Origin: Cyanobium sp. Cruz-8D1
GTDB lineage: Bacteria > Cyanobacteriota > Cyanobacteriia > PCC-6307 > Cyanobiaceae
Direction of reading: 5' to 3'
DNA: 64,000 nt
Assembly: GCF_024345975.1 (NCBI RefSeq)
Contig: NZ_JAGQCD010000012.1
Coordinates: 1-64,000, forward strand
Shown: one piece after another, positions 17,307-36,727 of the stretch
How the letters are laid out: the number at the start of each line of letters is the position of its first letter
Position numbering within the stretch: position 1 is the first letter of the stretch
Notes under the pieces: model-generated
The model's input: only the letters and a program-made list of their open reading frames with translations
Databases searched by the model: none
What the model was told of the DNA's origin: nothing
Position numbers and translations under genes: made by a program

Positions 17307-17804
17307 ATGCAGCAACTGCTGCCAGCCCTCAATGATCACAACCTGCCCTGGATGGACACCCTCCATCCGATCGTGGTCCACTTCGTCATCGCCATGGCGG
17401 TGATCAGCGTGATCTTCGATCTGATCGGCGTTGTGATGCGGCGACCGAATCTGTTTGAAGTCAGCTTCTGGAACCTGCTATTCGCCACGGGGGCCATCTT
17501 CGTGGCGATCATCTTCGGTCAGGTGGAGGCCGGCCTGGCCGATCCCTACGGCGGCTCGCGCACGATCCTCAACCTGCACAGCACCCTGGGCTGGTCGTTG
17601 GCCGGCATCCTCTCGGTGCTCACCGGCTGGCGCTACGTGCTGCGCAACCGGGACCCCGAGACGCTGCCCCTGCCCTTCCTGGCGGCGGGTGGGGTGCTGG
17701 CCGCGCTTGTGGCGGTGCAGGTCACCCTTGGCAACCAGCTGATCTGGATCTACGGCCTGCACACGGTGCCGGTGGTGGCCGCCGGCCGTGCCGGGCTGAT
17801 CTGA
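17307..17804 (+). CDS. DUF2231 membrane protein (first of pair)
   Basis: This 165-residue protein has four hydrophobic segments and the DUF2231 opening LHPIVVHFVIAMAVISVIFD, with a conserved HP and VHF. Later LNLHSTLGWSLAGILSVL and IYGLHTVPVVA contribute more His residues, which could bind heme. The function is unknown; such proteins often sit beside respiratory or cytochrome genes. Its stop overlaps the start of the second DUF2231 gene (TGATG), and the pair leads directly into the oxidase genes, so they are probably assembly or electron-transfer partners. That role is inference. Confidence 0.82.
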   Translation: MQQLLPALNDHNLPWMDTLHPIVVHFVIAMAVISVIFDLIGVVMRRPNLFEVSFWNLLFATGAIFVAIIFGQVEAGLADPYGGSRTILNLHSTLGWSLAGILSVLTGWRYVLRNRDPETLPLPFLAAGGVLAALVAVQVTLGNQLIWIYGLHTVPVVAAGRAGLI

Positions 17805-18427
17805 TGGCCTTCCCCCTGCCCCAGGCCGAGGCGCCGATCAACCAGCTGGGCGATTGGCTGGGTCCCAACGACCTGCCCTACAGCCTGCCGATCCATCCCA
17901 GCCTGGTTCATTTCACGATCGGGTTGTTCGTGATCGCCATCGCCTTCGACATCGTCGGCGCCCTGTATCCGATCGAAAAGCGGGTGTTCCGCTTCCTGGC
18001 CCTGCCGATCACCCGGGCCGGCTTCCATGACGTGGGCTGGTACAACCTGCTGGCCTGCGCCATCGTCAGCTTCTTCACCGTGGCGGCCGGCTTCTTCGAG
18101 ATGTTGCTGGCGGTGCCGCTTCCCGGTGTCACCAGCAGCATCGGCCTGCAGAGCATGGAAACCATGCTCTGGCATGGCGTCGGTGGGGTGGCGATCCTGC
18201 TGGCGATCATCGCCATGACCGTCTGGCGCGGTTACCAGCGCTTTCTCTGGCGCCGCGACATGGGCCGCCAGGTGCAGTGGCTCTACCTGCTGGTGGGACT
18301 CGGCCTGTTCCTGGTGATCGGCCTTCACGGCACCCTCGGCGCCGAGCTGGCGGCCGAATTCGGCGTCCACATCACCGCCGACCAGCTCCTGGCCAGCGGA
18401 GCTGATCTCCGCTCCGCCCTTCCCTAG
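17804..18427 (+). CDS. DUF2231 membrane protein (second of pair)
   Basis: This 207-residue protein also has the DUF2231 core: LPIHPSLVHFTIGLFVIAIA, then membrane segments around LLACAIVSFFTVAAGFFEM, METMLWHGVGGVAILLAII and LYLLVGLGLFLVIGLHG. Several His residues lie in or near the membrane segments (HPSLVHF, WHGV, GLHG), in a layout similar to the preceding paralogue. The start codon overlaps the previous stop by one base, and the oxidase subunit II gene begins 12 bases after its stop. The role is unknown, possibly a heme-binding partner of the quinol oxidase. Confidence 0.82.
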   Translation: MAFPLPQAEAPINQLGDWLGPNDLPYSLPIHPSLVHFTIGLFVIAIAFDIVGALYPIEKRVFRFLALPITRAGFHDVGWYNLLACAIVSFFTVAAGFFEMLLAVPLPGVTSSIGLQSMETMLWHGVGGVAILLAIIAMTVWRGYQRFLWRRDMGRQVQWLYLLVGLGLFLVIGLHGTLGAELAAEFGVHITADQLLASGADLRSALP

Positions 18428-18439
18428 GGCCCCCTCCCC

Positions 18440-19378
18440 ATGACCTCCTCATCCCCACGCCGTCCCGGCCCCATCGCCCTGGCGGCCCTGGCCGTCTGGA
18501 TCGGCCTGCTGGCCCTGATCAGCACCTGGGTGGCCGGCGTGTCCTATCAATGGCTGCCGGTGCAGGCCTCCAATGCCGCCCCACTGGTGGATGGCCTGTT
18601 CAGCTTTGAAACCGGCGTCGGCACGTTCGTGTTCCTGGGGGTGATCTCGGTGATGGGCTGGGTGTTGCTTGTGCACCGCGCCGAGAAGTACGACGAGAGC
18701 GATGCCGAACCGATCGAGGGCAACACGCGGCTGGAGGTGATCTGGACCGCCATCCCCCTGGTGCTGGTGATGGCCATCGCCTGGTACGCCATCCAGGTCA
18801 ATACGGAACTGGGCGTGCTGGGGCCGATGGAGCACATCCACCTGCGCGATCCCCAGGAGCAGCAGGGAGGGTACCCCGGGGACAGGCTGCCGGCCGAGCA
18901 GGTGGAGGTGGTGGCAAGGCAATGGTCGTGGGAGTTTCGCTACTCCGGCCAGAACGTCTCCAGCACGGAGCTGCACCTGGAGCTGGATCGGCCGATCACC
19001 TTCCGGCTGGTCTCCGAAGACGTGCTGCACGGCTTCTTCATCCCGGCTTTTCGCCTCAAGCAGGATGTGATCCCAGGCCGGGCGATCGATTTCAGCCTCA
19101 CCCCCACCCGCCTGGGCCGCTACCGGCTGCGTGACTCCCAGTTCAGCGGCACCTGGTTCGCCGCCAACCAGGCCGACGTGGTGGTTGAAACCGCCGTGGA
19201 CCACGCCGCCTGGCTGAAGCAGGCCGCCGCCGCCCCCCTGCAGAGCGGCCTCAGCGTGGCCTCCGACGAATACGCCGAGCGCCAGACCAACCCGCGCGGC
19301 GGCTGGCCCACCGTGGTGCCAGCCCCGCCGCCCCAGGTGAATGTTCCCGGTTCCAGCACCCTTCCCCACGACGCCTGA
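18440..19378 (+). CDS. ctaC: alternative respiratory terminal oxidase subunit II without CuA site
   Basis: This 312-residue subunit II has an N-terminal membrane anchor, the hairpin LEVIWTAIPLVLVMAIAWYA, and the cupredoxin domain with VEVVARQWSWEFRYSGQN. At the CuA position DVLHGFFIPAFRLKQDVIPG keeps one His. The second cluster reads RDSQFSGTWFAANQADV where canonical enzymes have CxExCGxxH, so both Cys, the Glu and the last His are missing. This is the pattern of cyanobacterial ARTO (CtaCII), thought to take electrons from quinol rather than cytochrome c. It follows the DUF2231 pair in the same operon. Confidence 0.92.
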   Translation: MTSSSPRRPGPIALAALAVWIGLLALISTWVAGVSYQWLPVQASNAAPLVDGLFSFETGVGTFVFLGVISVMGWVLLVHRAEKYDESDAEPIEGNTRLEVIWTAIPLVLVMAIAWYAIQVNTELGVLGPMEHIHLRDPQEQQGGYPGDRLPAEQVEVVARQWSWEFRYSGQNVSSTELHLELDRPITFRLVSEDVLHGFFIPAFRLKQDVIPGRAIDFSLTPTRLGRYRLRDSQFSGTWFAANQADVVVETAVDHAAWLKQAAAAPLQSGLSVASDEYAERQTNPRGGWPTVVPAPPPQVNVPGSSTLPHDA

Positions 19379-19382
19379 GGCC

Positions 19383-21053
19383 ATGACCAGCACAGCCCTT
19401 TCCCCCGAACCGCCCGCCTCCTGGCGACGCTACTTCGGCTTCAGCACCGATGCCAAGGTGATCGGCATCCAGTACATCGTGGTGGCCTTCTTCTTCTTCC
19501 TGGTGGGTGGCCTGCTGGCCATGATCATCCGAGGGGAGTTGATCACACCCGCTTCCGACTTGGTGGATCGCACCGTCTACAACGGCCTCTACACGATGCA
19601 CGGAACGATCATGTTGTTCCTGTTCACCTTCCCGGTTCTCAACGGGCTCAACAACCTGCTGATCCCCACCATGATCGGTGCCCCCGACATGGCCTTCCCG
19701 CGGCTCAACACCGCCGCCTTCTGGCTGGTGCCCGTGTTCGGCATCCTGCTGATCGCCAGCTTCTTCGTCCCCAGCGGCCCGGCCAGCGCCGGCTGGTGGT
19801 CCTATCCGCCGGTGAGTCTGCAGAACCCGCTTGGCCAACTGATCAATGGCGAGTTCCTCTGGGTGCTGGCGGTGGCCCTGTCCGGCGTTTCCTCCATCAT
19901 GGGGGCGGTGAACTTCGTCACCACGATCCTGCGCATGCGGGCTCCCGGCATGGGCCTCTTTCGCATGCCCGTCTTCTGCTGGACGGCGCTCGCCGCCCAG
20001 ACCCTGCAGCTGATCGGCCTGCCCGCCCTCACCGGTGGCGCCGTGATGCTGCTGTTGGATCTCAGCGTCGGCACGTCGTTTTACAGGCCCGAAGGGGGCG
20101 GCGATCCGGTCCTGTATCAGCACTTCTTCTGGTTCTATTCCCATCCGGCGGTGTACGTGATCATCCTGCCGGTGTTCGGCATCTTCTCGGAGCTGTTCCC
20201 TGTTTATTCGCGCAAGCCGCTGTTTGGCTACGTGTATGTGTGCCTGGCCTCCTTCATCATCGTGGGCCTCGGTCTGATCGTCTGGGTACACCACATGTTC
20301 CCCAGTGGCGTCACCCAGTGGATGCGTAACCTGTTCATGGTCACCACGATGCTGATCGCCGTGCCCACCGGGGTGAAGGTGTTCGCCTGGCTGGGCACCC
20401 TGTGGGGCGGCAAGATCAGGCTCACGACCCCGATGCTGTTCTGCCTCGGCGGCCTGTTCAACTTCGTCTTCGCCGGCATCACCGGCATCATGCTGGCCAC
20501 CGTACCGATAGACATTCACGTCAGCAACACCTATTTCGTGGTGGGCCACTTCCACTACGTGATTTACGGCGCAGCCGTCATGGGTATCTTCGCCGCCATC
20601 TACCACTGGTTTCCCAAGTTCACGGGCCGGATGCCCTACGAGGGCCTTGGCAAGCTGCATTTTCTGCTCACCTTCGTGGGCGCCAATCTCAGCTTCCTGC
20701 CCATGCATCCGATGGGTCTGATGGGAATGCCCCGGCGGGTCTCTTCCTACGACCCCGAGTTCGCCTTCTGGAACGTGCTGGCCAGCCTGGGATCGTTCCT
20801 GCTGGGGGTGTCGATCATCCCCTTCCTGCTCAACATGATCAGTTCCTGGGCCCGGGGTCCCAGGGCGCCGCACAACCCCTGGAACGCCATCGGCCTGGAA
20901 TGGCTGCTGCCCTCACCACCGGCGGAAGACAACTTCGGCGACCACGTCCCCACCGTGATCAGCCGTCCGTATGGCTATGGCACCGGCGAACCCCTGGTGG
21001 AGCACCAAGCCGACATTGATCGAGCCCTGACCCTTCAGGAGGCCAACCGATGA
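19383..21053 (+). CDS. ctaD: heme-copper oxidase subunit I (A2-type, ARTO)
   Basis: This 556-residue subunit I has about twelve membrane helices. TMHGTIMLFLFTFPVLNGL holds a heme ligand His. WFYSHPAVYVIILPVFGIFS holds a CuB His and the cross-linked Tyr. VWVHHMFPSG carries the CuB His pair, and VVGHFHYVIYGA carries the remaining heme His residues. The YSHPAVY motif has Ala where A1-type enzymes have the proton-channel Glu, so this is an A2-type enzyme using the Tyr-Ser arrangement. ATG 19383 (MTSTALSPE) lies four bases after subunit II stops. It should reduce oxygen to water in the membrane. Confidence 0.95.
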   Translation: MTSTALSPEPPASWRRYFGFSTDAKVIGIQYIVVAFFFFLVGGLLAMIIRGELITPASDLVDRTVYNGLYTMHGTIMLFLFTFPVLNGLNNLLIPTMIGAPDMAFPRLNTAAFWLVPVFGILLIASFFVPSGPASAGWWSYPPVSLQNPLGQLINGEFLWVLAVALSGVSSIMGAVNFVTTILRMRAPGMGLFRMPVFCWTALAAQTLQLIGLPALTGGAVMLLLDLSVGTSFYRPEGGGDPVLYQHFFWFYSHPAVYVIILPVFGIFSELFPVYSRKPLFGYVYVCLASFIIVGLGLIVWVHHMFPSGVTQWMRNLFMVTTMLIAVPTGVKVFAWLGTLWGGKIRLTTPMLFCLGGLFNFVFAGITGIMLATVPIDIHVSNTYFVVGHFHYVIYGAAVMGIFAAIYHWFPKFTGRMPYEGLGKLHFLLTFVGANLSFLPMHPMGLMGMPRRVSSYDPEFAFWNVLASLGSFLLGVSIIPFLLNMISSWARGPRAPHNPWNAIGLEWLLPSPPAEDNFGDHVPTVISRPYGYGTGEPLVEHQADIDRALTLQEANR

Positions 21054-21652
21054 GCAGCACCCCTGCCCCCCAGAGCGACCAGACCGTGGGCCACGGCGAG
21101 GGCCAGCACGCCAACCACAACCTCACCGGCTTCATCATTTTTCTGTGCTCCGAAAGCGTCATCTTCCTGGCGTTCTTCAGTGGCTACGCCATCCTGCGCC
21201 TGGCCGCCCTCGACTGGCTGCCCGCCGGTGTGGACAGCCTCGAATGGCGCCTGCCACTGATCAACACGGTGGTGCTGGTGTCCAGCTCCTTCACGATGGT
21301 GGTGGCCGAGCATTTCAAGGGCAAGGGGAAGATCTGGTTGTTCCGGGGCTTCTGGCTGCTGACCATGGCCATGGGGGCCTATTTCCTCTATGGCCAGGCG
21401 GTGGAGTGGAGTGGCCTCAGCTTCGGCTTCACCTCGGGCACCTTCGGCGGCACCTTCTATCTGCTCACCGGCTTCCATGGCCTGCATGTGCTCACCGGCA
21501 TCCTGCTGATGGGCCTGATGCTGGCCAAGTCCTTCGTCCCCGGCAATTACGACGGTGGCGAGCAAGGTGTCATCGCCACGTCCCTGTTCTGGCACTTCGT
21601 GGATGTGATCTGGATCATCCTGTTCGTGCTGCTCTATGTCTGGAGAGCCTGA
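21050..21652 (+). CDS. ctaE: heme-copper oxidase subunit III
   Basis: This 200-residue membrane protein has five helices of the COX3 family: HNLTGFIIFLCSESVIFLAF, INTVVLVSSSFTMVVAEHF, TFYLLTGFHGLHVLTGILL and TSLFWHFVDVIWIILFVLLY. The fragments GFHGLHV and WHFVDVIW are family signatures. Its start overlaps the ctaD stop by four bases (ATGA). It stabilises subunit I and completes the ARTO complex. The first GMC flavoprotein gene begins three bases after its stop, so oxidase and flavoprotein are probably co-expressed. Confidence 0.93.
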   Translation: MSSTPAPQSDQTVGHGEGQHANHNLTGFIIFLCSESVIFLAFFSGYAILRLAALDWLPAGVDSLEWRLPLINTVVLVSSSFTMVVAEHFKGKGKIWLFRGFWLLTMAMGAYFLYGQAVEWSGLSFGFTSGTFGGTFYLLTGFHGLHVLTGILLMGLMLAKSFVPGNYDGGEQGVIATSLFWHFVDVIWIILFVLLYVWRA

Positions 21653-21655
21653 ACC

Positions 21656-23170
21656 ATGATCATCGACGACAACCATTACGACGTGATTCTGATCGGCAGC
21701 GGTGCCGGTGGCGGAACATTCGCCGCGGCCCTCGCCGATGCGGGCCACACGGTGTTACTGCTGGAGCGCGGTGGCGTGATGCCCCAGGCCGACCAGAACG
21801 TGGCCGAAGTGAGTCTGTTCCGCAAGCAGCGCTACCACCCCGAGGAGAAATGGTTCGGCACCGATGGGGATCCCTTCTCCCCCCAGGTGGTGCATGCCAT
21901 CGGCGGCAACACCAAGATCTGGGGTGGCGTGCTCGAACGCATGCGCGAGCAGGAATTCATTGGCGTGCCGCTCCAGGAGGGGCCCTCGCCGGACTGGGAA
22001 CTGCGTTACGACGACCTGGCTCCCTGGTATGAGCAGGCGGAGAAGCTCTATCACGTGCACGGCGTGGCTGGTGCCGATCCCACCGCCCCGGCCCGCGAGA
22101 GTGCCTATCCCGCGGCGCCACGGCCGGTGGAGCCGTTTCTGGTGGAGCTGCGTGCCGCCCTGGAGCGCCAGGGCCTGCATCCCTACGACCTACCCCTGAG
22201 CTGGTCCGACTCCGCCGTCGATCCCACCGGGGATGCCGAGCTGTTCGGCGTTGATCCGGTGCGCGCCTGCAGCGGCGTCACGGTCAAGGAGCATGCCCGG
22301 GTGATGCAACTGCATGTCAATCCGTCGGGGCGGGAGGTGCGCGGCGTCGAAGCGGAGATCGACAACCAGCGCTGGCTGTTCCGCGGCCACCAGGTGGTGT
22401 TGGCCGCCGGGGCCATCGGCACGCCGGAGATCCTGCTGCGCTCCGCCACCGACCACCATGCCCGCGGCCTGGCCAACGGCTCCGACCAGGTGGGCCGCAA
22501 CCTGATGAAGCCCCAGCTCACCTCGATCCTGCAGCTGGCGGCCGCCCCCAACTCGGGCCGCTACGGCCGCGGCCATGGCATCACCGACTTCTACTGGGGT
22601 GACAAGAACGTCGACTTCCCCCTCGGCTCGATCCAGAGCGGTGGCGGGGTTCTCCAGGACGCCCTGTTCGCCGAATCTCCGCCGGTGCTCTCCCTGGTGA
22701 CCCGCCTGCTGCCGGATTTCGGCCTTGAGCAGCTGGCCGCCCGCTCGATCACCTGGTGGGCGATGAGCGGCGTGCGGCCCGATCCCCACAACCGCCTCGC
22801 CCTGCGGGGCCAGCAGCTGCAGATCCACTACACCGCCAACAACCGGGAGGCCCACGACCGCCTCGTTTACCGCTGGATCGACAGCCTCAAGGCCGTGGAG
22901 GCCGACCCCCTGACGATGGTGGCCAAGGCCGCCCCCACCCACCCCCGCGGCGAGGCGCCCCTGCCGGTGATCGGCGGCGCCTGCGGCACCTGCCGCATGG
23001 GCTCGGATCCGGCCACCTCGGTGGTGGATCTGCAGGGCCGCAGCCACGAGGTGGCCAACCTCTGGATCGTCGATGCCAGCGTGCTGCCCTTCTGCCCGTC
23101 GGTGGGGGTGGGGCTCACGGTGATCGCCAACGCCCTGCGCATCGGCGCCGCCCTCAAGGCCTCCCTATGA
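21656..23170 (+). CDS. GMC-family flavoprotein lacking the usual catalytic pair
   Basis: This 504-residue protein has an intact FAD motif (DVILIGSGAGGGTFAAALA, then LLLERGG) and the GMC C-terminal signature region. At the first catalytic position it reads GGACGTCRMGSDP, where active GMC enzymes have His before xxGT. At the second it reads PSVGVGLTVIANALRIG, where the active Asn or His would follow the Val. Both residues are Gly. The downstream GMC protein keeps both. It may be a structural or regulatory partner, or use other residues. It starts three bases after ctaE and overlaps the next gene by four bases. No signal peptide is seen. Confidence 0.85.
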   Translation: MIIDDNHYDVILIGSGAGGGTFAAALADAGHTVLLLERGGVMPQADQNVAEVSLFRKQRYHPEEKWFGTDGDPFSPQVVHAIGGNTKIWGGVLERMREQEFIGVPLQEGPSPDWELRYDDLAPWYEQAEKLYHVHGVAGADPTAPARESAYPAAPRPVEPFLVELRAALERQGLHPYDLPLSWSDSAVDPTGDAELFGVDPVRACSGVTVKEHARVMQLHVNPSGREVRGVEAEIDNQRWLFRGHQVVLAAGAIGTPEILLRSATDHHARGLANGSDQVGRNLMKPQLTSILQLAAAPNSGRYGRGHGITDFYWGDKNVDFPLGSIQSGGGVLQDALFAESPPVLSLVTRLLPDFGLEQLAARSITWWAMSGVRPDPHNRLALRGQQLQIHYTANNREAHDRLVYRWIDSLKAVEADPLTMVAKAAPTHPRGEAPLPVIGGACGTCRMGSDPATSVVDLQGRSHEVANLWIVDASVLPFCPSVGVGLTVIANALRIGAALKASL

Positions 23171-25890
23171 CGGCCAGCGTCCCCGGCCGCGCCGCGATTG
23201 ACGCCATCACCCCGTCGGAAACCCGGCGCCTGGCCGAGCGCGACCACGGCCTCGCCCCCTGGAGCCTGTGGGGCAGCTACCTGAGCGAACGCCAGTGGGG
23301 CACGGTGCGCGAGGACTACTCCGCCGACGGGGACGCCTGGAGCTCCTTCCCCCACGACCACGCCCGCTCCCGCGTCTACCGCTGGGGCGAAGACGGCCTG
23401 CTGGGCCTTTGCGACGACCAGTGCCGCCTCTGTTTCTCGCTGGCCCTCTGGAACGGTGCCGATCCGATCCTCAAGGAACGGCCCTTCGGCCTGGGCAACC
23501 CCGAGGGCAACCACGGCGAGGATCTCAAGGACTACTTCTTCCATCTCGCCAACACCCCCACCCACAGCTTCATGCGGGGGCTGTACAAGTACCCGCAGCA
23601 GCAGTTCCCTTACCAGGAGCTGCTGGCCGAGAACGGCCGCCGCGGCCGCGATCAGCCCGAATACGAACTGGTCGACACGGGAATCTTCAACGAGAGCCGT
23701 TATTTCGATGTCGCCATCGACTACGCCAAGGCCGGACCTGAAGACCTGCTGATCCGCCTGCGGGTCAGCAACCGCGGCCCCGAATCAGCACCGCTCACCC
23801 TGTTGCCAACCCTGTGGCTGCGCAACACCTGGCGCTGGGGCTATCCCGATGAAGTCGAACACCAGATCTACCCAATCGCCGGCTCCGGAGACGCCGCCAG
23901 CGGCCCTGGGGTGGTCACCGATGGGATCCCCCATCTGGGGGTGTATCAGCTCGACTGCGAGGAGCCCGGCCGCTGGATCTTCACCGACAACGAAACCAAC
24001 AGCGAGCGGCTCTGGGGCCAGCCCAACGCCACCGCTTTCCAGAAGGACGGCTTCCATCGCCATGTGGTCGACGGCGAAATCGGGGCGGTGAATCCGGCCC
24101 TGCAGGGCAGCAAGGCGGGCCGCTTGCTGCAGCGCACCCTGGCCGCCGGCGAGGAGTGGGTGGTGGAGCTGCGGCTGCACCGCGTCGACGGCCCCGCGCC
24201 GGCCCCTGCACTGGACGAGAACGCCATCGCGGCGATCTTCGCCGAGCGCGAACGGGAATGGCTCGAGTATTTCGAGCATCGCGTTCCCGGCCTGTCCGAA
24301 GACGACCGCCGCATCCACCTGGCCGGCACCGCCGGGCTGCTGTGGTGCAAGAAGTACTACGGCTGGAGCGTGATGCGCTGGCTCGAGGGCGACCCCACCG
24401 GCACGCCCCCACCGGCCCAGCGGCGTCACACCCAGAACGCCTACTGGCAACGGCTGCACGCCCACGACGTGATCTCGATGCCGGATTGCTGGGAGTACCC
24501 CTACTTCTGCCAGTGGGACCTGATGTTCCACTCCGTGGCCTTTGCGGTCTTCGATCCGGCGACCGCCAAGGAGCAGTGCATGCTGCTGCGCAAGCCCCAC
24601 TACACCGCTCCCAACGCCCAGACCCCTGCCTACGAATGGGCCCTGTCCGATCCCAATCCGCCGATCGGCGCCTGGGCGGCGATGCGCATCTATCAGATTG
24701 ATCGCAAGAACTCCGACACCGCCGACCTGGCCTTCCTGCGGGCGGCCCTGCGCAAGCTGATCCTGGAGTACGGCTGGTGGGCCAACCGCAACGACCGCTC
24801 CGGCGACAACGTCTTCGAGGGGGGCTTCCTGGGCCTCGACAACATCGCCGTGTTCGATCGGCGCTTCCCCCTGGCCGACGGCAGCATCATCGAGCAGTGC
24901 GACGGCACCGCCTGGATGGCCTCGCTCAGTCTCAATCTGCTGGAGATCGCCGTGGAGCTGAGCCGCGAAGAGCCGGAGTACGCCGACATCTGCGAGCGCT
25001 TCGTGGTGGATTTCGTGCAGCTGGCCATTGGCCTCAACAATCCTGCCGGCCGCGACTACCTCAACTGGGACGAGGAGGACGGTTTCTATTACGACGTGAT
25101 CAAACGGCCCGACGGCAGCGTCGACTACCTGCGCACCCGCTCGCTCTCGGGCCTGGTGCCACTGCTGGCGGTGCAAAGCTTCGACATCGACACCGTGGCA
25201 CGGTTACCGATGCTGGATGTCACCCGCACCCTGGCCTGGTTCACCCACGAGCGCACCACGCCCTCCTGGATGGTGCAGAACCTGGGGATCTGGCACAACG
25301 ACCGGGTGCTGTTCACCTTGGTGCCCAGGGAGCGCCTACAGCGCATCTGCGAGCGGCTCTTCGACGAGGAGGAGTTTCTCTCGCCCTACGGCATCCGCTC
25401 CCTTTCCAAGGTGTACGAACAGCACCCCTACACCTACACCGAAGGCAGCGAAAGCCAGACCCTCACCTACAGCCCGGCCGACAGTCCGGTGGCGATGTTC
25501 GGGGGCAACTCCAACTGGCGCGGGCCGGTGTGGATGCCGATGAACTTCCTGCTGATCGAATCGCTGCAGAAGTTCGCCCACTTCTACGACAACAGCTTCA
25601 AGGTGGAGTTCCCCACCCGCTCGGGCCACTGGATCAGCCTCTGGGAGGCCTCCCTGGAGCTGGAGAAGCGGCTGGTGGATCTGTTCCGCCGCAACGGCGA
25701 AGGCCGCCGCCCCTTCAATGGCGGCGTGGAACTGTTCCAGAACGATCCCCACTGGCGTGATCTGATCCTGTTCAACGAGTACTTCCACGGCGACAATGGC
25801 CGTGGCGTCGGCGCCTCCCACCAGACCGGCTGGAGCGCCATGGTCTGCAAGATGCTCAATCAGCTCAACCGCTATACCCCCCCGTCATGA
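23167..25890 (+). CDS. GH63-like (MGH1-type) glucosidase
   Basis: This 907-residue protein has an N-terminal beta-rich domain (WSSFPHDHARSRVYRWGEDG) and a C-terminal (alpha/alpha)6 barrel. Barrel motifs are CWEYPYFCQWDLMFHSVAFA near residue 440, GGFLGLDNIAVFDRR near 555, YLNWDEEDGFYYDVI near 635, and FGGNSNWRGPVWMPMNFLL near 780. The last is a GH63/GH37-type signature. The family acts on alpha-glucosidic bonds of glucosides or mannosylglycerate-like solutes; the substrate is unknown. ATG 23167 overlaps the GMC stop by four bases; a much longer in-frame extension upstream is only a shadow of the GMC gene. No signal peptide is evident, so it is probably cytoplasmic. Confidence 0.83.
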   Translation: MTASVPGRAAIDAITPSETRRLAERDHGLAPWSLWGSYLSERQWGTVREDYSADGDAWSSFPHDHARSRVYRWGEDGLLGLCDDQCRLCFSLALWNGADPILKERPFGLGNPEGNHGEDLKDYFFHLANTPTHSFMRGLYKYPQQQFPYQELLAENGRRGRDQPEYELVDTGIFNESRYFDVAIDYAKAGPEDLLIRLRVSNRGPESAPLTLLPTLWLRNTWRWGYPDEVEHQIYPIAGSGDAASGPGVVTDGIPHLGVYQLDCEEPGRWIFTDNETNSERLWGQPNATAFQKDGFHRHVVDGEIGAVNPALQGSKAGRLLQRTLAAGEEWVVELRLHRVDGPAPAPALDENAIAAIFAEREREWLEYFEHRVPGLSEDDRRIHLAGTAGLLWCKKYYGWSVMRWLEGDPTGTPPPAQRRHTQNAYWQRLHAHDVISMPDCWEYPYFCQWDLMFHSVAFAVFDPATAKEQCMLLRKPHYTAPNAQTPAYEWALSDPNPPIGAWAAMRIYQIDRKNSDTADLAFLRAALRKLILEYGWWANRNDRSGDNVFEGGFLGLDNIAVFDRRFPLADGSIIEQCDGTAWMASLSLNLLEIAVELSREEPEYADICERFVVDFVQLAIGLNNPAGRDYLNWDEEDGFYYDVIKRPDGSVDYLRTRSLSGLVPLLAVQSFDIDTVARLPMLDVTRTLAWFTHERTTPSWMVQNLGIWHNDRVLFTLVPRERLQRICERLFDEEEFLSPYGIRSLSKVYEQHPYTYTEGSESQTLTYSPADSPVAMFGGNSNWRGPVWMPMNFLLIESLQKFAHFYDNSFKVEFPTRSGHWISLWEASLELEKRLVDLFRRNGEGRRPFNGGVELFQNDPHWRDLILFNEYFHGDNGRGVGASHQTGWSAMVCKMLNQLNRYTPPS

Positions 25891-27527
25891 GCTCCCCGTC
25901 CCCCAGCGCACAGGTCGCCGGTCCGAGCCTGTACACCTCGCCCCTGCCGCAGCCGGCCCAGCGGCAGGTGAGCCATGGTGCCCACTTCGATGTGGTGATC
26001 ATCGGCAGCGGCGCCGGTGGCGGCACCCTGGCCCGCCACCTGGCCCCCACGGGCCTGAAGGTGCTGGTGCTGGAGCGGGGCGACTGGCTGCCCCAGGAAC
26101 CCCAGAACTGGGACGCCGAAGCGGTGTTCCAGCAGAACCGCTATGTGTCGAAGGATCCCTGGCTCGACAAGCACGGCAAGACGTTCCAGCCGGGCAGCCA
26201 TTACTTCGTCGGCGGCGCCACCAAGATGTATGGCGCCGCCCATTTCCGCCTGCGCCAGCAGGACTTCGAGCAGCTTCCCCACTTCGATGGCACCTCGCCG
26301 GCCTGGCCCCTGCGCTACGCCGATTTCGAGCCCTGGTACCAGAGGGCCGAGGAGATGTACCACGTGCACGGCCAGCGCGGTGAGGACCCCACCGAGCCGC
26401 CCTGCAGCGGCCCCTACCCCCATCCGCCGGTGGCCCATGAGCCGCGGATGCAGAAGCTGGTCGACGACCTGCGCTCCGCCGGGCTGCACCCGTTTCATGC
26501 CCCCAGCGGCGTCCAGCTCGATGAGGCCAACATGGCCTTCAGCCGTTGCCGCAAGTGCAACTGCTGCGATGGTTTCCCCTGCCTGGTGCACGCCAAATCG
26601 GACGCGGAGGTGCTGGGCATGCGGCCGGCCCTGGCCTGCCCCAACGTGTCCCTGCTGACGCGGGCCCAGGTGAAGCGCCTGATCACCGATGAATCCGGCC
26701 GCACGGTGAAGGCGGTGGAGCTGGAGCGGGACGGTGAGCCGCTGACGGTCAGCGGCGATGTGGTGGTGGTGAGCTGTGGCGCCGCCAACAGCGCCCGGCT
26801 GCTGCTGGTTTCGGCCAACGACCGCCATCCCCGCGGCCTGGCCAACGGCTCGGACCAGGTGGGCCGCCACTACATGTTCCACAACAGCAAGGCGATGGTG
26901 GCCCTGGCCCATGAGCCGAACCACACCGTCTTCCAGAAGACGGTGTGCGTCAACGACTGGTACCTCGGCGATGCCGACTTCGACTACCCGATGGGCAACA
27001 TCCAGATGACGGGCAAGACAAACGGCACGATCATGAAGGGCTACGCGCCACTGGAAACCTTCATGATGCCCGGCTGGAGCATGGACAAGATCGCCGAGCA
27101 TGCCCTCGACTTCTGGCTCTCCAGCGAGGATCTTCCCGATCCGAACAACCGCGTCACCGTGACCGGCTCCGGCCAGATCCAGCTCAGCTACACCCCCAAC
27201 AACCTCACCGCCTCGGCGCGCCTCGCCAGCCGGCTGGAAGGCCTGCTGGATCGCCTCTACCTGCGCAACCACCTGGTGGAGCGCCAGTTCTACATCGCCA
27301 ACAGCATGGGCATCGCCGCCGTGGGGCACCAGGCCGGCACCTGCCGCTTCGGCAGCGATCCCGCCAGCTCGGTGCTCGACTTGAACTGCAAGGCCCACGA
27401 ACTCGACAACCTCTACGTCGTCGATACCAGCTTCATGCCCACCATCGGCGCCGTGAACCCCTCCCTCACCGCCATCGCCAATGCCCTGCGGGTGGGCACC
27501 CACCTGGTGGAACGGCTGCGGGGCTGA
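25887..27527 (+). CDS. GMC-family oxidoreductase with intact catalytic residues
   Basis: This 546-residue flavoprotein has the FAD motif DVVIIGSGAGGGTLARHLA and LVLERGDWL. A Cys-rich segment, FSRCRKCNCCDGFPCLVHAK, is typical of the bacterial glucose/choline-type subgroup. The active-site motifs VGHQAGTCRFGSDP (His) and AVNPSLTAIANALRVG (Asn) are present. It should oxidise an alcohol or sugar hydroxyl. The gene starts inside the stop of the glucosidase gene (four-base overlap), so a sugar released there could be its substrate, and the quinol oxidase upstream could be the electron sink. Both links are inference from operon context. Confidence 0.88.
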   Translation: MSSPSPSAQVAGPSLYTSPLPQPAQRQVSHGAHFDVVIIGSGAGGGTLARHLAPTGLKVLVLERGDWLPQEPQNWDAEAVFQQNRYVSKDPWLDKHGKTFQPGSHYFVGGATKMYGAAHFRLRQQDFEQLPHFDGTSPAWPLRYADFEPWYQRAEEMYHVHGQRGEDPTEPPCSGPYPHPPVAHEPRMQKLVDDLRSAGLHPFHAPSGVQLDEANMAFSRCRKCNCCDGFPCLVHAKSDAEVLGMRPALACPNVSLLTRAQVKRLITDESGRTVKAVELERDGEPLTVSGDVVVVSCGAANSARLLLVSANDRHPRGLANGSDQVGRHYMFHNSKAMVALAHEPNHTVFQKTVCVNDWYLGDADFDYPMGNIQMTGKTNGTIMKGYAPLETFMMPGWSMDKIAEHALDFWLSSEDLPDPNNRVTVTGSGQIQLSYTPNNLTASARLASRLEGLLDRLYLRNHLVERQFYIANSMGIAAVGHQAGTCRFGSDPASSVLDLNCKAHELDNLYVVDTSFMPTIGAVNPSLTAIANALRVGTHLVERLRG

Positions 27528-27535
27528 GGCTGGCC

Positions 27536-28822
27536 ATGGAAACGTCGGAGGACACCTCGGAGCGGCGAGTGCTGCTGGCCCTCGGCAGCGCCTGGGCCCT
27601 GACGGCCGGCTGGTTCCTGTTCTGGCCGGTGCCCACCGAGGTGATCGGCCGGGGGGTGGTGATCGTACCGGGGGGCGCCACGGTGATCGATGCCCGGGCC
27701 GAGGGCCAGATCCTCAGCCTGCCGGTGCGGGTGGGCGAGCGGGTGAGCCGGGGCCAGACCCTGCTGCGCCTCTACCTGCCCACCCTGGAGCAGCAACTGC
27801 GCCGTCAGGAGAAGGATCTGGCGGAGCTGATCCGCATCAACGCCGATCTCGACCGGCGCGACCAGGCGCGACTGGCCTCGGCCCGGCGGCTGCGGGACAC
27901 GGCCCTGGCCCAGCTGCAGGGCAACCGCGAACGCCTCGATGCCCTGCGTCGCGTCTACGACCAGAAGGTGGCCGATTTCCGCCATCTCGCCCGCCGCGAG
28001 GTGGTGGCCCCCCTGGCCGGCGAGGTGGTGGCCAGTGAAGACCGGGCCATCCAGCTCGACAACGACGTCGCCGATCTCGGCATCCGGCAGCGGGAGGCGA
28101 TCGATGCCTGGGAGACGGTGAAGCTGGGCATCGAGACCGAAGCCCAGCGGCGGCGCTTTGGCATCCATGACGCCCGCCGCGCCGTGGGGGTCACCCAGAC
28201 CCGCCTGGGCTTCGACGGCAGCCTCAGCGCCACCCGGGATGGGCAGCTGCTGGATCTGCAGGTGGTGCGCGGCCAGACGGTGAAACCGGGCCAGCGCCTC
28301 GGTACCCTGGGAAGTCCCAAGGGTGGCCCTGAAGCTGGCGGCCAGGCCTTGCAGGCCGTGGCCTACTTCGCGCCGGCCGATGCCCGCCGCCTGCGCCCCG
28401 GCCTGGCCATGGAGGTGGTGCCGGACTGGAACGAGCGGGGCCGCTTCGGCGGCATCCGTGGTCGCGTCAGCAGCATCAACCTGCTGCCCGCCACCAGCGA
28501 AGACGTCAACACCACCATGGGCAACCCCCAGCTGGCGGAGGCCCTGGTGCGCCACGGACCGGTGCTGCGCACCGAGATCACCTTGCTGAGCGCGGGCGAC
28601 ACTGCCGGCTTCGATGGCTTCCGCTGGACCCTCAGCCGCGGCAGCAGCGTCTTTCCGATCCGCGAGGGGCTGACCCTCAAGGCCCACGGCTATGTCGAAT
28701 GGCGGCCACCGGTCAGCTACCTGCTGCCGATGCTGCGCGACCTCACGGGCAGCTATCGCACCCTGCGCCAGCAGGAGCGCCAGGACCAGCCCCAACTCCA
28801 GCAGCGACAGGCCCTGCCATGA
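27536..28822 (+). CDS. HlyD-family membrane fusion protein, NHLM-type
   Basis: This 428-residue periplasmic adaptor has one N-terminal membrane helix (ALGSAWALTAGWFLFW), a split lipoyl domain (VIDARAEGQILSLPVRVGER and GQLLDLQVVRGQTVKPG) and a long coiled coil between them (about residues 85-210). The C-terminal part, with GGIRGRVSSINLLPATSED, GFRWTLSRGSS and PPVSYLLPMLRDLTG, resembles the secretion proteins of NHLM/Nif11 bacteriocin systems. The matching peptidase-ABC transporters are not in this window. It starts eight bases after the GMC gene and overlaps the next small gene by four bases. The NHLM assignment is by memory of motifs, so moderate. Confidence 0.8.
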   Translation: METSEDTSERRVLLALGSAWALTAGWFLFWPVPTEVIGRGVVIVPGGATVIDARAEGQILSLPVRVGERVSRGQTLLRLYLPTLEQQLRRQEKDLAELIRINADLDRRDQARLASARRLRDTALAQLQGNRERLDALRRVYDQKVADFRHLARREVVAPLAGEVVASEDRAIQLDNDVADLGIRQREAIDAWETVKLGIETEAQRRRFGIHDARRAVGVTQTRLGFDGSLSATRDGQLLDLQVVRGQTVKPGQRLGTLGSPKGGPEAGGQALQAVAYFAPADARRLRPGLAMEVVPDWNERGRFGGIRGRVSSINLLPATSEDVNTTMGNPQLAEALVRHGPVLRTEITLLSAGDTAGFDGFRWTLSRGSSVFPIREGLTLKAHGYVEWRPPVSYLLPMLRDLTGSYRTLRQQERQDQPQLQQRQALP

Positions 28823-29025
28823 CCCGCGAGCTGCCCTGGCTGGTGCTGGTGGCGGCCCTGCTGGTGGTGTTGCTGCATGCCAACGCCCCGGAAGTGTGGT
28901 TCTGGTTCGCGGCCCTGCTGCTGCTGCTGCTGTGGCGCACGTTCGCCTGGCGCCAGCGCCGCTGGCAGCGGCTCTGCGGCGGTGCTCAGGAGCCGCCCAG
29001 CACCAGCGGCAGCGCCACCGGCTGA
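28819..29025 (+). CDS. small membrane protein at the end of the oxidase-GMC operon
   Basis: This 68-residue protein is almost entirely two hydrophobic helices (LPWLVLVAALLVVLLHA and VWFWFAALLLLLLWRTFAWR), then a basic stretch and a short polar tail. It overlaps the HlyD stop by four bases (ATGA), which makes it a credible coupled gene rather than a chance frame. Its last 40 bases overlap the convergent TolC-like gene on the opposite strand. The function is unknown; it may anchor or accompany the HlyD adaptor. Confidence 0.6.
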   Translation: MTRELPWLVLVAALLVVLLHANAPEVWFWFAALLLLLLWRTFAWRQRRWQRLCGGAQEPPSTSGSATG

Positions 29026-30644
29026 TCGGGCCGGTCAGGCACCGGCAGCAGCTCGCGCAGCAGCTGGGCATAGCTGACATTGGCCAGGGTGGTGGATTCG
29101 GCCACCCCCTCCATGGCGCCGGTGAGGGTGGCCACGGTGGTGGCCACGTCGCTGTAGTCGGCCAGTCCGAGCTGGTAACGGGCCCGCACATCGCGGAAGG
29201 CCTCCCGGGAGGCGCCGTACGAAGCGCGGGCCGCCACGATCTGGCGCAGGGCGGCCCGATGGTCGTAGAAGGCGGCCTCAAGGCGCTGACGGATGGCGTT
29301 GCGCTCGCGGGCCAGGCTCTGGTCGGTGCGCGCCGCGGCGCTGCGGCTGGCGGCCACGGCGCCGGCCGTGACGCCGCCATCGAAGAAGCGCCAGTGCAGC
29401 TGCAGACCCGCGGCCCAGTCGGAGCGCTGGTTGAACAGCTGGGGAATGAGGGCCGAGCTGCAGCAGCCATCCAAGCGGATCACCGGCTGGGTGATCAGCC
29501 CCTGGCCGTAGCCACCGGAGGCCACCAGCCGCAGGCTGGGCAGCAGTTCGGCAGCGCGGCGATCGGCCTGGCGCAGCAGGGCGTCGCGGGCGGCCTGCAG
29601 GGCCCGCAGCTGGGGGTTGTCGCGCCAGCCGCGCACGATCGTCTGCTCCAGATCGAGGGGCCAGGGGGGCTGCAACCGCACCGTCTCGCTGGCCCGCAGG
29701 CTGACATCGAAGGGCACGTTGATCAGGTTACTGAGCTGGCGCTGACGGCTGAGCTGCAGGGCCTCGGCCTGCTCCAGGCGATAGAGGCTCTGCTGCAGGG
29801 CGGCCTCGGCCCGGAGCCGATCCAGCCGCGGCACCAGACCCGCCTGCTGGAGCGCCGCCACCTGGTCGCGCACCACCGTGTCGCTGTCGGCAACGGCCCG
29901 GCGGATGCGCTGCAGCTGGTCGGCGAGCTGCAGCCCGTAGTAGGCGACGCTCACATCCAGCTGCAGCTGGCGCAACCGGTCGGCGTAGCGCTGGCGGGAG
30001 GCCCTGAGGCCGTCGTCGGCCTCGGCGATGCTGGCGGTGCGGTTAGGGCTGATCAGCTCCCAGCCCAGTTCCATGCGGGCGGCGGCCGCACCGACGTTGG
30101 TCTGCACCACATTCCAGCCCTGGGGCCTGACCAGAAACGGGGAGTCCGCCGGATAGATGCCGTCATTGGCGGCCCAGACCTGGCTGTAGGAGCGCTGCTG
30201 GCGGAAGCCACCGGCCAGGTTCAGACCCAGCTCCGGCCACCTGCGTCCCCGGGCCGAGCCGGCCAGGTCCTGCTGCTCGCGCACGCCGAGCACGGCGGCG
30301 GCGAGATCGGGGTCGTTGCGCACGGCCACCGCCAGGGCCTCGGCCAGGCTGAGCCGCTGGCGCCGCTCGATCCGCACCGCCTCGGGAGCCTCCGGCAGGG
30401 CCGTGGCGGCCGGGGCCGGCAGGTCGGGCACCTCTGCCGGTCCGGCACCGTCGGCCTCCGGCGCCGCCGGCAGCAGGCTGCGGTCGAGCCGTTCGAGATC
30501 CTGCTGGAACCCCTGGAGGCTGCGCAGCAGCGCCGGGGATGGGGGCGGCAGGCGGCGCGACTGGGCCCGGGCCGGGGCCATCGCTGCCACCACGGCCAGC
30601 GCCAGGGCCGGGGCCAGCCAGCGGTGGGCGTGGCGCCGGATCAT
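28986..30644 (-). CDS. TolC-family outer membrane efflux protein
   Basis: This 552-residue protein has a signal peptide (WLAPALALAVVAAMAPARAQ) and two homologous halves of alpha-helical repeats typical of TolC. They contain RLSLAEALAVAVRNDPDLAA near residue 100 and LDLEQTIVRGWRDNPQLRAL near residue 325, then the C-terminal RAALRQIVAARASYGASREA and RYQLGLADYSDVATTV. It would form the outer membrane channel of an export system. ATG 30644 overlaps the stop of the upstream micro-membrane gene by four bases; a longer frame upstream is a shadow. The convergent HlyD gene nearby is its obvious partner. Confidence 0.9.
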   Translation of the reverse strand: MIRRHAHRWLAPALALAVVAAMAPARAQSRRLPPPSPALLRSLQGFQQDLERLDRSLLPAAPEADGAGPAEVPDLPAPAATALPEAPEAVRIERRQRLSLAEALAVAVRNDPDLAAAVLGVREQQDLAGSARGRRWPELGLNLAGGFRQQRSYSQVWAANDGIYPADSPFLVRPQGWNVVQTNVGAAAARMELGWELISPNRTASIAEADDGLRASRQRYADRLRQLQLDVSVAYYGLQLADQLQRIRRAVADSDTVVRDQVAALQQAGLVPRLDRLRAEAALQQSLYRLEQAEALQLSRQRQLSNLINVPFDVSLRASETVRLQPPWPLDLEQTIVRGWRDNPQLRALQAARDALLRQADRRAAELLPSLRLVASGGYGQGLITQPVIRLDGCCSSALIPQLFNQRSDWAAGLQLHWRFFDGGVTAGAVAASRSAAARTDQSLARERNAIRQRLEAAFYDHRAALRQIVAARASYGASREAFRDVRARYQLGLADYSDVATTVATLTGAMEGVAESTTLANVSYAQLLRELLPVPDRPDQPVALPLVLGGS

Positions 30645-30886
30645 GGCTGCCGGGGGCCCGGGGTTGGCGCCGCGTCCTTGGTGGAGGAGGCCTGCATCAG
30701 GTCGTGGAGGCCCAGGCTGGTGCGGGCCAGGCAGCCGATCGAGAAGCAGATGGCGGCGCTGCCGAACAGGCCCAGCTGCGCTTCCCGGGTTTCGCCCTCG
30801 AGGCGGGTCATGGCCAGCAGCACCACCCCGGCGGCCAACCAGGGCAGGGTGACAACCATCCCAAGCTGGGAACGGGTCATCGCCAT
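30641..30886 (-). CDS. micro-membrane protein A with GLFG-AAICFSIGC motif
   Basis: This 81-residue protein has two membrane segments, MVVTLPWLAAGVVLLAM and LGLFGSAAICFSIGCLA, and a polar tail rich in Pro and Thr. The second segment is nearly the same as that of the next gene upstream (GLFGNAAICFSIGCVC). It overlaps both neighbours: its stop lies in the tolC start (ATGA) and its ATG shares a base with the upstream stop (TGATG). I do not recognise the family. The start at ATG 30886 is fixed by these overlaps. Confidence 0.65.
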   Translation of the reverse strand: MAMTRSQLGMVVTLPWLAAGVVLLAMTRLEGETREAQLGLFGSAAICFSIGCLARTSLGLHDLMQASSTKDAAPTPGPRQP

Positions 30887-31158
30887 CAACGCAGACCCAG
30901 CTCCTGGCGCAGCTGCAACTCCAGCTGGCGCACGGCGTTGAAACGCGCCATGGCCCACGAGAGCTTGCAGACACAGCCGATCGAGAAGCAGATCGCCGCG
31001 TTGCCGAACAGGCCCCAGGCGTGGCTGTGCAGGTTGAAATCCTCGGCCAGCAAGAGCCGCAGCGCCAGGATCACCAGCAGGCCGGCCACCACCCAGGGGC
31101 CGTACACCCAGCCGACGAAGAACTGATCAACGAACAGCCGACGCGGCGACGGGGCCAT
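30886..31158 (-). CDS. micro-membrane protein B, paralogue of the adjacent protein
   Basis: This 90-residue protein has two membrane segments (VYGPWVVAGLLVILALRLLL and WGLFGNAAICFSIGCVC) and a C-terminal basic amphipathic helix (about residues 70-90). It shares GLFG, AAICFSIGC and the spacing of the first helix with the next gene, so the two are tandem paralogues. Together with the TolC-like gene they form a tightly coupled leftward unit. The function is unknown; a role in the same export system is inference. Confidence 0.65.
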   Translation of the reverse strand: MAPSPRRLFVDQFFVGWVYGPWVVAGLLVILALRLLLAEDFNLHSHAWGLFGNAAICFSIGCVCKLSWAMARFNAVRQLELQLRQELGLR

Positions 31159-33606: not shown

Positions 33607-34812
33607 GTGGCGAAGCGATCCCTCTCCAGCCTCAGCGCCGATGATCTCCGCGGCAAGCGGGTGCTGGTGCGGGTCGACTTCAACGTACCCCTCGACGACG
33701 CTGGCGCCATCACCGATGACACCCGCATCCGGGCGGCCCTGCCGACCGTGCGCCACCTGATCGACCACGGCGCCAGGGTGCTGCTGGCGGCCCACTTCGG
33801 CCGGCCCAAGGGCCAGGTGAATGACGCCATGCGCCTCACCCCGGTGGCGGCCCGTCTCAGCGAGCTGCTGGGCCAAGCGGTGGTCAAGACCGACAGCTGC
33901 ATCGGCCCCGACGCCGAGGCCAAGGTGGCCGCCATGGCTGATGGCGATGTGGTGCTGCTTGAGAACGTGCGCTTTTTCGCTGAGGAGGAGAAGAACGACG
34001 CCGGCTTCGCCGCAAAGCTGGCCGCCCTGGCCGACATCTACGTGAACGATGCCTTCGGCGCCGCCCACCGGGCCCACGCCTCCACCGAGGGGGTCACCAA
34101 CTACCTGAGCCCCAGCGTGGCCGGGTTCCTGATGGAGAAGGAGCTGCAGTACCTGCAGGGCGCCATCGATGAGCCCAAGCGCCCCCTGGCCGCCATCGTG
34201 GGCGGCTCCAAGGTGAGCAGCAAGATCGGCGTGCTCGAGTCGCTGATCGACAAGTGCGACAAGGTGCTGATCGGCGGCGGCATGATCTTCACCTTCTACA
34301 AGGCCCGTGGGCTGGCGGTGGGCAAGAGCCTGGTGGAGGAGGACAAGCTCGAGCTTGCCAAGGAACTGGAAGCCAAGGCGGCCGCCAAGGGCGTCCAGCT
34401 GCTGCTGCCCACCGATGTGGTGCTGGCCGACAACTTCGCCCCCGACGCCAACAGCCAGACCACGGCGATCGACGCCATCCCCGACGGCTGGATGGGCCTC
34501 GACATCGGCCCCGATTCGGTCAAGGCCTTCCAGGTTGCCCTCGCCGACTGCAAGACCGTGATCTGGAACGGCCCCATGGGCGTGTTCGAGTTCGACGCCT
34601 TCGCCGCCGGCACCAACGCCATCGCCCACACCCTGGCCGAGCTCAGCGGCAAGGGCTGCTGCACGATCATCGGCGGCGGTGACTCCGTGGCCGCCGTGGA
34701 GAAGGTGGGCGTGGCCGAGACGATGAGCCACATCTCCACCGGCGGCGGCGCCAGCCTCGAGCTGCTGGAAGGCAAGGTGCTGCCCGGCGTGGCCGCCCTC
34801 GACGAGGCCTGA
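33607..34812 (+). CDS. pgk: phosphoglycerate kinase
   Basis: This 401-residue protein is a normal-length phosphoglycerate kinase. It has the signature [20 protein letters not shown], the substrate-binding Arg in [33 protein letters not shown] in the hinge region, and the nucleotide-binding [13 protein letters not shown] with CTIIGGGD at the C-terminal end. It acts in glycolysis and the Calvin cycle. GTG 33607 ([10 protein letters not shown]) is the likely start. Its last 134 bases are repeated almost exactly at 36594-36727. Confidence 0.97.
34679..34812 (+). repeat. direct repeat, copy 1 (pgk 3' end)
   Basis: These 134 bases, encoding the last 44 codons of pgk and its stop, recur at 36594-36727 with one mismatch that I found (GGGCGTGG versus GGGTGTGG). 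Similarity ends exactly at the stop codon. The two copies are 1915 bases apart and flank the 419-residue gene. Confidence 0.95.
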
Positions 34813-36330: not shown

Positions 36331-36480
36331 ACATGCAGGTGCTCAGGGCCGCGTGGGTGCTGGCGGCCAGCACACCACTCTCCCCTTCTGGAGGATGGCG
36401 ATGCGGCCCCCTTGCTCGTTAACGGCAGGGCCTTCATGCCCGGGAAATTCTTCTCCCTGTTGGGCCGGAGTGAGCCGGTC
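36331..36480 (-). pseudogene. decayed internal fragment of the small exported protein gene at 36737-37171
   Basis: About 150 bases align with 36895-37043, including an exact 19-base match (36388-36406 with 36953-36971). On the reverse strand the fragment reads LTPAQ, then FPGHEGPAV and GRIAILQKGRVVC, where the intact gene has PTPAQ, FPDQKRLAI and ARIAILQSGERC. Both ends of the gene are missing here, so it cannot make the protein. It is part of a tandem duplication with the pgk fragment next to it. Confidence 0.8.
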
Positions 36481-36494
36481 TCCTTCACTGGCTC

Positions 36495-36727
36495 GACCAT
36501 CAGCCCCGATTCGGCGAAAGCCTTCCAGGACGCCCTGGCCGAGCTCAGCGGCAAGGGCTGTTGCACGATCACGGTGGCGGTGATTCGGTGGGAGTGACTC
36601 CGTGGCCGCCGTGGAGAAGGTGGGTGTGGCCGAGACGATGAGCCACATCTCCACCGGCGGCGGCGCCAGCCTCGAGCTGCTGGAAGGCAAGGTGCTGCCC
36701 GGCGTGGCCGCCCTCGACGAGGCCTGA
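36495..36727 (+). pseudogene. pgk 3' fragment, internally deleted
   Basis: Bases 36495-36529 match pgk from 34501 (CCCCGATTCGG and CCTTCCAGG). About 94 bases of pgk are then missing, and the match resumes at CCCTGGCCGAGCTCAGCGGC. A short insertion follows near 36580-36593, after which the last 134 bases are nearly perfect through the TGA at 36725-36727. The reading frame is broken. The sharp contrast between a decayed 5' part and an almost identical 3' part suggests recent gene conversion or a recent recombination event. Confidence 0.88.
36594..36727 (+). repeat. direct repeat, copy 2 (pgk 3' end)
   Basis: Second copy of the 134-base pgk 3' end, in the same orientation as copy 1 at 34679-34812. 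The intact small exported protein gene lies nine bases beyond it on the other strand, which is probably the original arrangement of pgk and that gene. Confidence 0.95.

Follow-up and report, generated by a model that had tools for sequence, protein, structure and literature searches.

What kind of exporter is built from an adaptor, an outer-membrane channel and three small membrane proteins, and what drives it? The question is raised by a compact block of five genes in a 64,000-nucleotide stretch of DNA (the window) of Cyanobium sp. Cruz-8D1, on contig NZ_JAGQCD010000012.1 of a 3.97-Mb genome assembly of 108 contigs (GCF_024345975.1). The closest records to the window, in a scan with the HlyD of the block (the focal HlyD), are Cyanobium, Synechococcus and Aphanothece. 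The block starts with a gene coding for a HlyD/EmrA-type periplasmic adaptor of 428 amino acids (27536-28822, forward strand; Pfam HlyD_3, 32.6 bits), whose stop is overlapped by 4 nt by the start of smH (28819-29025, forward strand), coding for a 68-amino-acid membrane protein with two hydrophobic segments. Converging on smH, with a tail-to-tail overlap of 40 nt, lies the gene of a TolC-family outer-membrane channel of 552 amino acids (28986-30644, reverse strand; Pfam OEP, 125.5 bits). Its start is overlapped by 4 nt by smB (30641-30886, reverse strand; 81 amino acids, hydrophobic segments 6-29 and 36-54), which overlaps by 1 nt with smA (30886-31158, reverse strand; 90 amino acids, a predicted two-helix hairpin). 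The original prediction, made from the letters of the window, had described a TolC-like gene facing HlyD and preceded by two small coupled genes, with no peptidase-ABC gene beside HlyD; its coordinates are exact and the absence is correct at this locus. On balance, we lean towards an adaptor-channel unit of FUSC kinship, joined by small membrane proteins, whose energised step is supplied in trans or has been replaced.

The five genes form one unit. Among 45 distinct related loci (window not counted), 41 keep the order HlyD and smH on one strand followed by TolC, smB and smA on the other; two of the remaining four end at a contig edge after TolC, one ends within HlyD, and one (L059) is damaged, HlyD being matched only in part and smH not at all. 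Both smB and smA are present with the focal TolC in every distinct locus having enough sequence (42 of 42). The 45 loci are the sum of 38 from the HlyD scan and 13 from genomes with smA matches, minus six duplicates, a locus being dropped only if its HlyD match ended identically to another. The sample is not random, since of the other genomes with two smA matches, 33 in number, 15 were fetched. For each of the five genes, nine comparisons all give a ratio of non-synonymous to synonymous substitution rates (dN/dS) below 1, ranging over 0.04-0.16 for smA, 0.15-0.26 for TolC, 0.24-0.30 for HlyD, 0.10-0.39 for smB and 0.22-0.52 for smH. Together with the conserved order, these ratios make the grouping more than a matter of chance. 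The surroundings vary over at least three chromosomal settings: 23 of the 45 distinct loci have a GMC oxidoreductase gene (GMC2) close to the module, and the other settings are hemB and/or VOC-mutS2, oppABC with RluD (two loci), SDR with NDH2 (two loci), and GMC2 and/or RluD. Most simply, the five genes would have been relocated as a group on one or more occasions.

To which family of exporters does the adaptor belong? In a tree of 46 HlyD rows, the 14 focal HlyDs used form one side of a branch supported at 93/96, and they are joined at 100/100 to 17 HlyDs of FUSC-type loci or close paralogues, from 15 distinct loci (two loci are entered twice, and three of the rows have no FUSCa match within 10 kb). 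Twelve HlyDs of NHLM bacteriocin loci split off at 100/99; they derive from 13 fetched loci with an NHLM ABC1, of which L224 yielded no HlyD. The closest HlyDs found are those of two loci of the same genome, C1 and C98, with 51% identity to the focal HlyD, and that of a third locus, C32, is distant (27%). All three loci pair HlyD and TolC with FUSC-family proteins, and of four TolC paralogues from this genome that were compared, the one at the C1 FUSC locus scores best, being 35% identical to the focal TolC. A close HlyD paralogue (at least 538 bits) was also found in 17 of 20 genomes picked for lacking the module, 14 of these paralogues lying within 10 kb of a FUSCa match. Moreover, the alignment of AaeA of Escherichia coli with the focal HlyD profile covers 83 columns (hhalign 83%, E 9e-6). 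We assign the focal HlyD to FUSC (AaeB-like) efflux kinship with high confidence. For the type I secretion adaptor family TIGR01843 it scores 41 bits, below the cut-off of 208.65. The protein has one N-terminal hydrophobic segment (residues 12-30), and its AlphaFold model shows two helices of about 70 residues each (82-154 and 159-228), with a mean predicted local distance difference test score (pLDDT) of 68.7 and poor quality from residue 354 on. The best Protein Data Bank (PDB) match to the model by Foldseek is EmrA (4tko, E 3.6e-15), with TM-scores of only 0.33/0.40.

The small protein coupled to the adaptor, smH, likewise shares ancestry with FUSC-type efflux systems. A clear homologue stands beside HlyD at C1 (BLASTP E 3e-10; 46.9 bits), and others stand beside HlyD in the FUSC-type loci L230-L233 (45-57 bits), where the gene calls of L230 and L233 had frame errors, so that these two rest on hidden Markov model matches. 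Weaker likeness was seen at C32 (E 1e-4 over 19 amino acids) and in the distant loci L235 and L236 (17 bits), in which HlyD, a small gene and a FUSC gene are consecutive; a smH profile built from focal sequences alone misses C32 and L235/L236 at a stricter setting, whereas the smH alignment used before included the proteins of C1 and C32. In Pfam and NCBIfam, smH exceeds the cut-off of no family, and its weak matches to unrelated membrane families reach at best E 0.0009. The original prediction that small membrane proteins go with exporter genes is thus borne out, both by the 41 of 45 distinct loci and by the presence of smH beside HlyD in FUSC-type loci. The C98 FUSC-TolC-HlyD locus (L083; G000 C98:84000-103900) looks decayed, with an in-frame TAA in the FUSCa match, a TAG in the HlyD match and a partial smH match only.

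Which pump would such a unit use? Neither the window nor 53 related loci (duplicates counted; 51 of them have the focal HlyD) yielded a FUSC hit, whether searched with two profiles, which recovered 9 of 11 controls, or with eight single queries including C32 and AaeB, which recovered 10 of 11. The controls missed by the two-profile search were C32 and L233; the single queries missed L233 alone, whose FUSC gene lies about 33 kb away. A PF13515 search of the genome gave no match on the contig of the unit. Among 299 genomes of the order, a FUSCa match is present somewhere in all 34 genomes with two smA-profile matches, in 12 of the 14 with a single smA match and in 41 of the 251 others; in two of the 34 (G223 and G329), smA-smB has no exporter genes beside it. 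We also observed an orphan coupled FUSC pair (C76; L097:8324-10401); gene calls over the 18 kb retrieved for it include neither HlyD nor TolC. Close orthologues (at least 87%) of its FUSCa occur in five of the 299 genomes (G000, G025, G026, G002 and G036), and G002 and G036 are without smA.

In the explanation that we favour, HlyD is the periplasmic adaptor, smH a small membrane partner coupled to it, and TolC the outer-membrane channel. HlyD and smH have a common ancestry with FUSC-type (AaeB-like) tripartite efflux systems, the unit carrying smB and smA instead of a FUSC pump gene. The substrate would most likely be a small, probably amphipathic or anionic metabolite moved across the envelope, and smA and smB may act on the assembly. 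We further suggest, with low to moderate confidence, that a FUSC protein encoded elsewhere energises the inner-membrane step in trans. Several points weigh against this explanation. The unit encodes no pump gene, and the flanks read in the pump search reached at most about 10 kb and were often shorter. The co-occurrence of FUSCa in 34 of 34 genomes is confounded by kinship and genome size. FUSC loci often have their own HlyD, smH and TolC, so that lending of a pump is not needed. No dedicated FUSC partner was found, the orphan C76 pair being rejected as one because its distribution differs from that of the unit. Of the FUSC pair at C1, the first protein falls under every Pfam cut-off, and the tree program gave a long-branch warning for the HlyD tree, above all for the C32 adaptor. 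Comparison of smH with AaeX of E. coli gave an hhalign probability of 0.4%, that is, no detectable homology. Finally, 12 genomes have smA by itself behind hemB, the flanks retrieved there containing neither HlyD nor TolC. As for AaeX, smH is similar to it in size and position, and DUF1656, its family, is absent among the Pfam matches of 14 smH sequences; profile comparisons give no support to either smH or smA as an AaeX homologue.

smA and smB are paralogues, as had been read from their common GLFG-x-AAICFSIGC: a pairwise BLASTP comparison gives 43% identity over 47 amino acids (E 1e-11), profile-profile comparison with hhalign a probability of 99.3% (E 3e-20), and the two share GLFG[NS]AAICFSIGC, of which ICFSIGC is invariant in 20 aligned smA and 19 aligned smB sequences. 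The hairpin of smA is predicted with a mean pLDDT of 77, and a hydropathy scan marks one long stretch only (12-43). Neither protein reaches the cut-off of a known family in Pfam or NCBIfam; for smA, nothing below E 0.05 was found in Pfam or PHROGs, and its profile has no sequence match in the PDB. The FUSC-type loci L082-L084 and L230-L236 hold no match to either. Having the lowest dN/dS, smA is the most constrained of the five genes.

smA belongs to the unit in the genome of the window and lives outside it elsewhere. In the Cruz-8D1 genome it occurs with exporter genes only, no smA lies behind hemB, where the next gene follows after 45 nt, and the unit is on another contig than hemB. In other genomes smA directly follows hemB (identified by Pfam ALAD, 431 bits) on the same strand, with candidate starts at -19 to +105 nt from the hemB stop (30 loci, two of them duplicates). 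In addition to the 12 solo cases, the smA-smB pair stands alone at hemB in two further loci; the weak smA matches in G089 and G128 (18.3 and 16.8 bits), for which a re-scan gave 19 bits in L147 and nothing in L148, were left out of the smA-only count. In a quick hemB tree of 29 rows, of which 11 of the 26 inner branches are open, loci with the module and loci with solo smA are intermingled, and those with the pair only cluster with a module locus. This pattern fits repeated loss of exporter genes with smA kept, repeated gain being the alternative. The 12 genomes with smA behind hemB and no HlyD or TolC beside it indicate that smA probably does more than serve this exporter. The idea in the original prediction that the small proteins are extra exporter components thus agrees with their co-occurrence in 41 of 45 loci and is weakened where it would make smA an exporter part only.

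These observations open an alternative, possible if somewhat doubtful, in which smA is a hemB-linked membrane protein with its own function and smB its duplicate, both joined to TolC as efflux genes settled at hemB. The adjacency and common direction of hemB and smA are in line with it, as are the 12 smA-only and two smA-smB-only loci, all at hemB, the hemB tree within the limits just given, and the lowest dN/dS of the five. The genome of the window, with hemB lacking smA behind it and smA found with exporter genes only, speaks against it, and so does the presence of smB and smA with the focal TolC in all 42 informative loci.

An unlikely alternative is that smB and smA are themselves the inner-membrane component, their hairpins oligomerising to take the place of the pump or to control entry to the adaptor. 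Their coupling to TolC with constant presence in the 42 loci, the invariant ICFSIGC in both aligned sets and the lack of a FUSC gene found near the unit would suit such a role. However, at 90 and 81 amino acids they are small, no energising domain was found in Pfam or NCBIfam, 12 loci have smA, and two have smA-smB, with neither HlyD nor TolC alongside, and the data do not place either protein at the adaptor.

It is quite improbable that the unit is a hemB-linked efflux system for tetrapyrroles or haem precursors. The genes hemB-smA-smB-TolC run in one direction in 14 distinct loci, and MacAB-TolC of E. coli exports protoporphyrin according to PMC4263509; however, the unit and hemB are on separate contigs in the genome of the window, GMC2 rather than hemB is nearby in 23 of the 45 distinct loci, and adjacency at hemB may be inherited gene order. 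More speculatively, and as a long shot, smA and smB could be a new hairpin family, marked by the invariant ICFSIGC, that ties a TolC channel to haem/tetrapyrrole metabolism: in many picocyanobacteria smA would act at the step of hemB or at the membrane where it takes place, and in genomes with the FUSC-related HlyD-smH-TolC set, smA and smB would make of it a pumpless or pump-borrowing export route for a metabolite of the pathway. The alternatives overlap, and their likelihoods are not meant to add up to certainty.

The original prediction had seen in the HlyD a resemblance to NHLM bacteriocin secretion proteins, and this holds in part, the focal HlyD passing TIGR03794 (NHLM_micro_HlyD) narrowly, with 160.7 bits against a cut-off of 156.2 (157.0 in a six-frame search), whereas the tree puts it with FUSC-type loci. 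Five HlyDs from NHLM ABC1 loci score 234-496 bits. Among FUSC-type HlyDs, C1 reaches 197, L235 213 and C32 76 bits; since C1 and L235 are above 156.2, the TIGR03794 cut-off lets in FUSC-type adaptors. The lower NHLM and the higher FUSC-type scores nearly meet, and the tree separates the two groups more clearly. An NHLM ABC transporter had been supposed to lie elsewhere or to be replaced. None of the ABC transporters in the 108 contigs reaches the NHLM ABC1 cut-off, the best having 450 of 853 bits, and none was found at E 1e-200; a search of the genome for the C39 peptidase (PF03412) gave nothing at E up to 0.1. One ABC protein (C54) does score 23.5 bits for Peptidase_C39 by hmmscan (cut-off 22). 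In an alignment, the ABC proteins of C24 and C54 have C39-like regions without the Cys motif of an NHLM ABC1, and their genes are adjoined by HlyD matches. Thirteen NHLM loci contain no match to smH, smA or smB. An NHLM/NHLP bacteriocin exporter with its peptidase-ABC transporter encoded elsewhere, which the narrow TIGR03794 pass, the C54 score and the four putative bacteriocin clusters credited to the related Cyanobium PCC 7001 in a 2011 survey (PMC3140520) might favour, is therefore hardly credible, being rejected on the tree (100/99 separation), on the TIGR03794 scores and on the want of an ABC1 over cut-off, NHLP/Nif11 precursors and ABC2 not having been searched for. Given those four clusters, relatives may well have bacteriocin systems; the studied unit is not one by these tests.

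In two ABC proteins (L085:6654-9791 and L086:6572-9511), a cyclic-nucleotide-binding-like region is combined with a C39-like one that lacks the NHLM Cys motif, and both have a HlyD match next to them. The C24 ABC gene has a rotamase-domain gene as a further neighbour, an arrangement like that of the HlyD-SurA-ABC clusters named bacteriocin group I in PMC3140520.

Upstream of HlyD, the gene of the GMC oxidoreductase GMC2 (25887-27527, forward strand; Pfam GMC_oxred) ends with an 8-nt gap before it. GMC2 is a neighbour outside the unit, because it lies near the module in only 23 of the 45 distinct loci and other neighbours are found elsewhere. It closes a series (17307-27527) of two DUF2231-like genes, COX2, COX1 and COX3, a first GMC oxidoreductase, a MGH1/GH63-like hydrolase and the second GMC oxidoreductase; the order cox genes, GMC1, hydrolase, GMC2 is kept in 15 of the 38 loci from the HlyD scan, several others being cut by contig ends. 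Further downstream in the window, the 3' end of pgk (34687-34812) is seemingly repeated about 1.9 kb downstream (36412-36727), past an open reading frame of 419 amino acids; a 41-amino-acid frame (36602-36727) matches the C-terminus of PGK, and the frame before it resembles the preceding part of PGK. In L028, L030 and L032, about 2 kb extra lie between the RluD-like and YlqF-like genes compared with close relatives. Pfam served to check the labels hemB, VOC, mutS2, dnaJ, RluD-like, NDH2-like and COX1-3, as well as the first of the DUF2231 genes; the genes labelled PGK/pgk, SDR, oppABC, YlqF and UspA we take to be such from their sequences.

If the explanation by FUSC kinship is true, a tripartite efflux adaptor and its outer channel can be kept as a unit without their own pump gene, accompanied by small membrane proteins; no family database searched names smA, smB or smH. 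Among the matches listed in the open-licence PubMed Central literature, no title describes the unit, smA-type proteins having no name to search by. The results also show that bacteriocin export can be over-called from the NHLM HlyD label, since the cut-off takes in cyanobacterial FUSC-type adaptors. Moreover, the role of the smA gene behind hemB can be put to a direct test in picocyanobacteria.

Compared with known systems, the unit resembles NHLM bacteriocin secretion (TIGR03794/TIGR03796) in that the focal HlyD is narrowly over the TIGR03794 cut-off, and differs in the position of this HlyD outside the NHLM clade and in the absence of an ABC1 over cut-off in the genome. XcsAB-TolC cellulose export of cyanobacteria (PMC12430437) also has a HlyD-like protein and TolC, but no cellulose synthase is among the five genes of the unit or its direct neighbours. 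In EmrAB-TolC, which has the closest solved adaptor fold by Foldseek (4tko, 8zar), the pump is of the MFS type, whereas the unit has no pump gene and the HlyD model is poor in its last third. Bucl8-FusCDE of Burkholderia, a proposed tetrapartite pump (PMC8277102), joins a channel gene to fusaric-acid efflux genes; unlike the unit it has its own efflux genes, and the likeness is one of description. In AaeXAB of E. coli, a FUSC/ArAE system for aromatic carboxylic acid efflux, the gene of a 67-amino-acid membrane protein adjoins the adaptor gene, as smH does HlyD, and AaeA aligns with the focal HlyD profile over the 83 columns mentioned above. The function of AaeX is unknown, and its loss had a minor effect on p-coumarate tolerance according to PMC9301823. 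The unit differs from AaeXAB in being without a FUSC pump gene and with a TolC, smH is not detectably homologous to AaeX, and the annotation of the aae region shows nothing like smA or smB. The cyanobacterial FUSC-HlyD-TolC loci, which carry one or two FUSC genes where read and no match to smA or smB, hold the nearest HlyDs found (C1 and C98, 51%) and, at C1 and L230-L233, smH beside HlyD.

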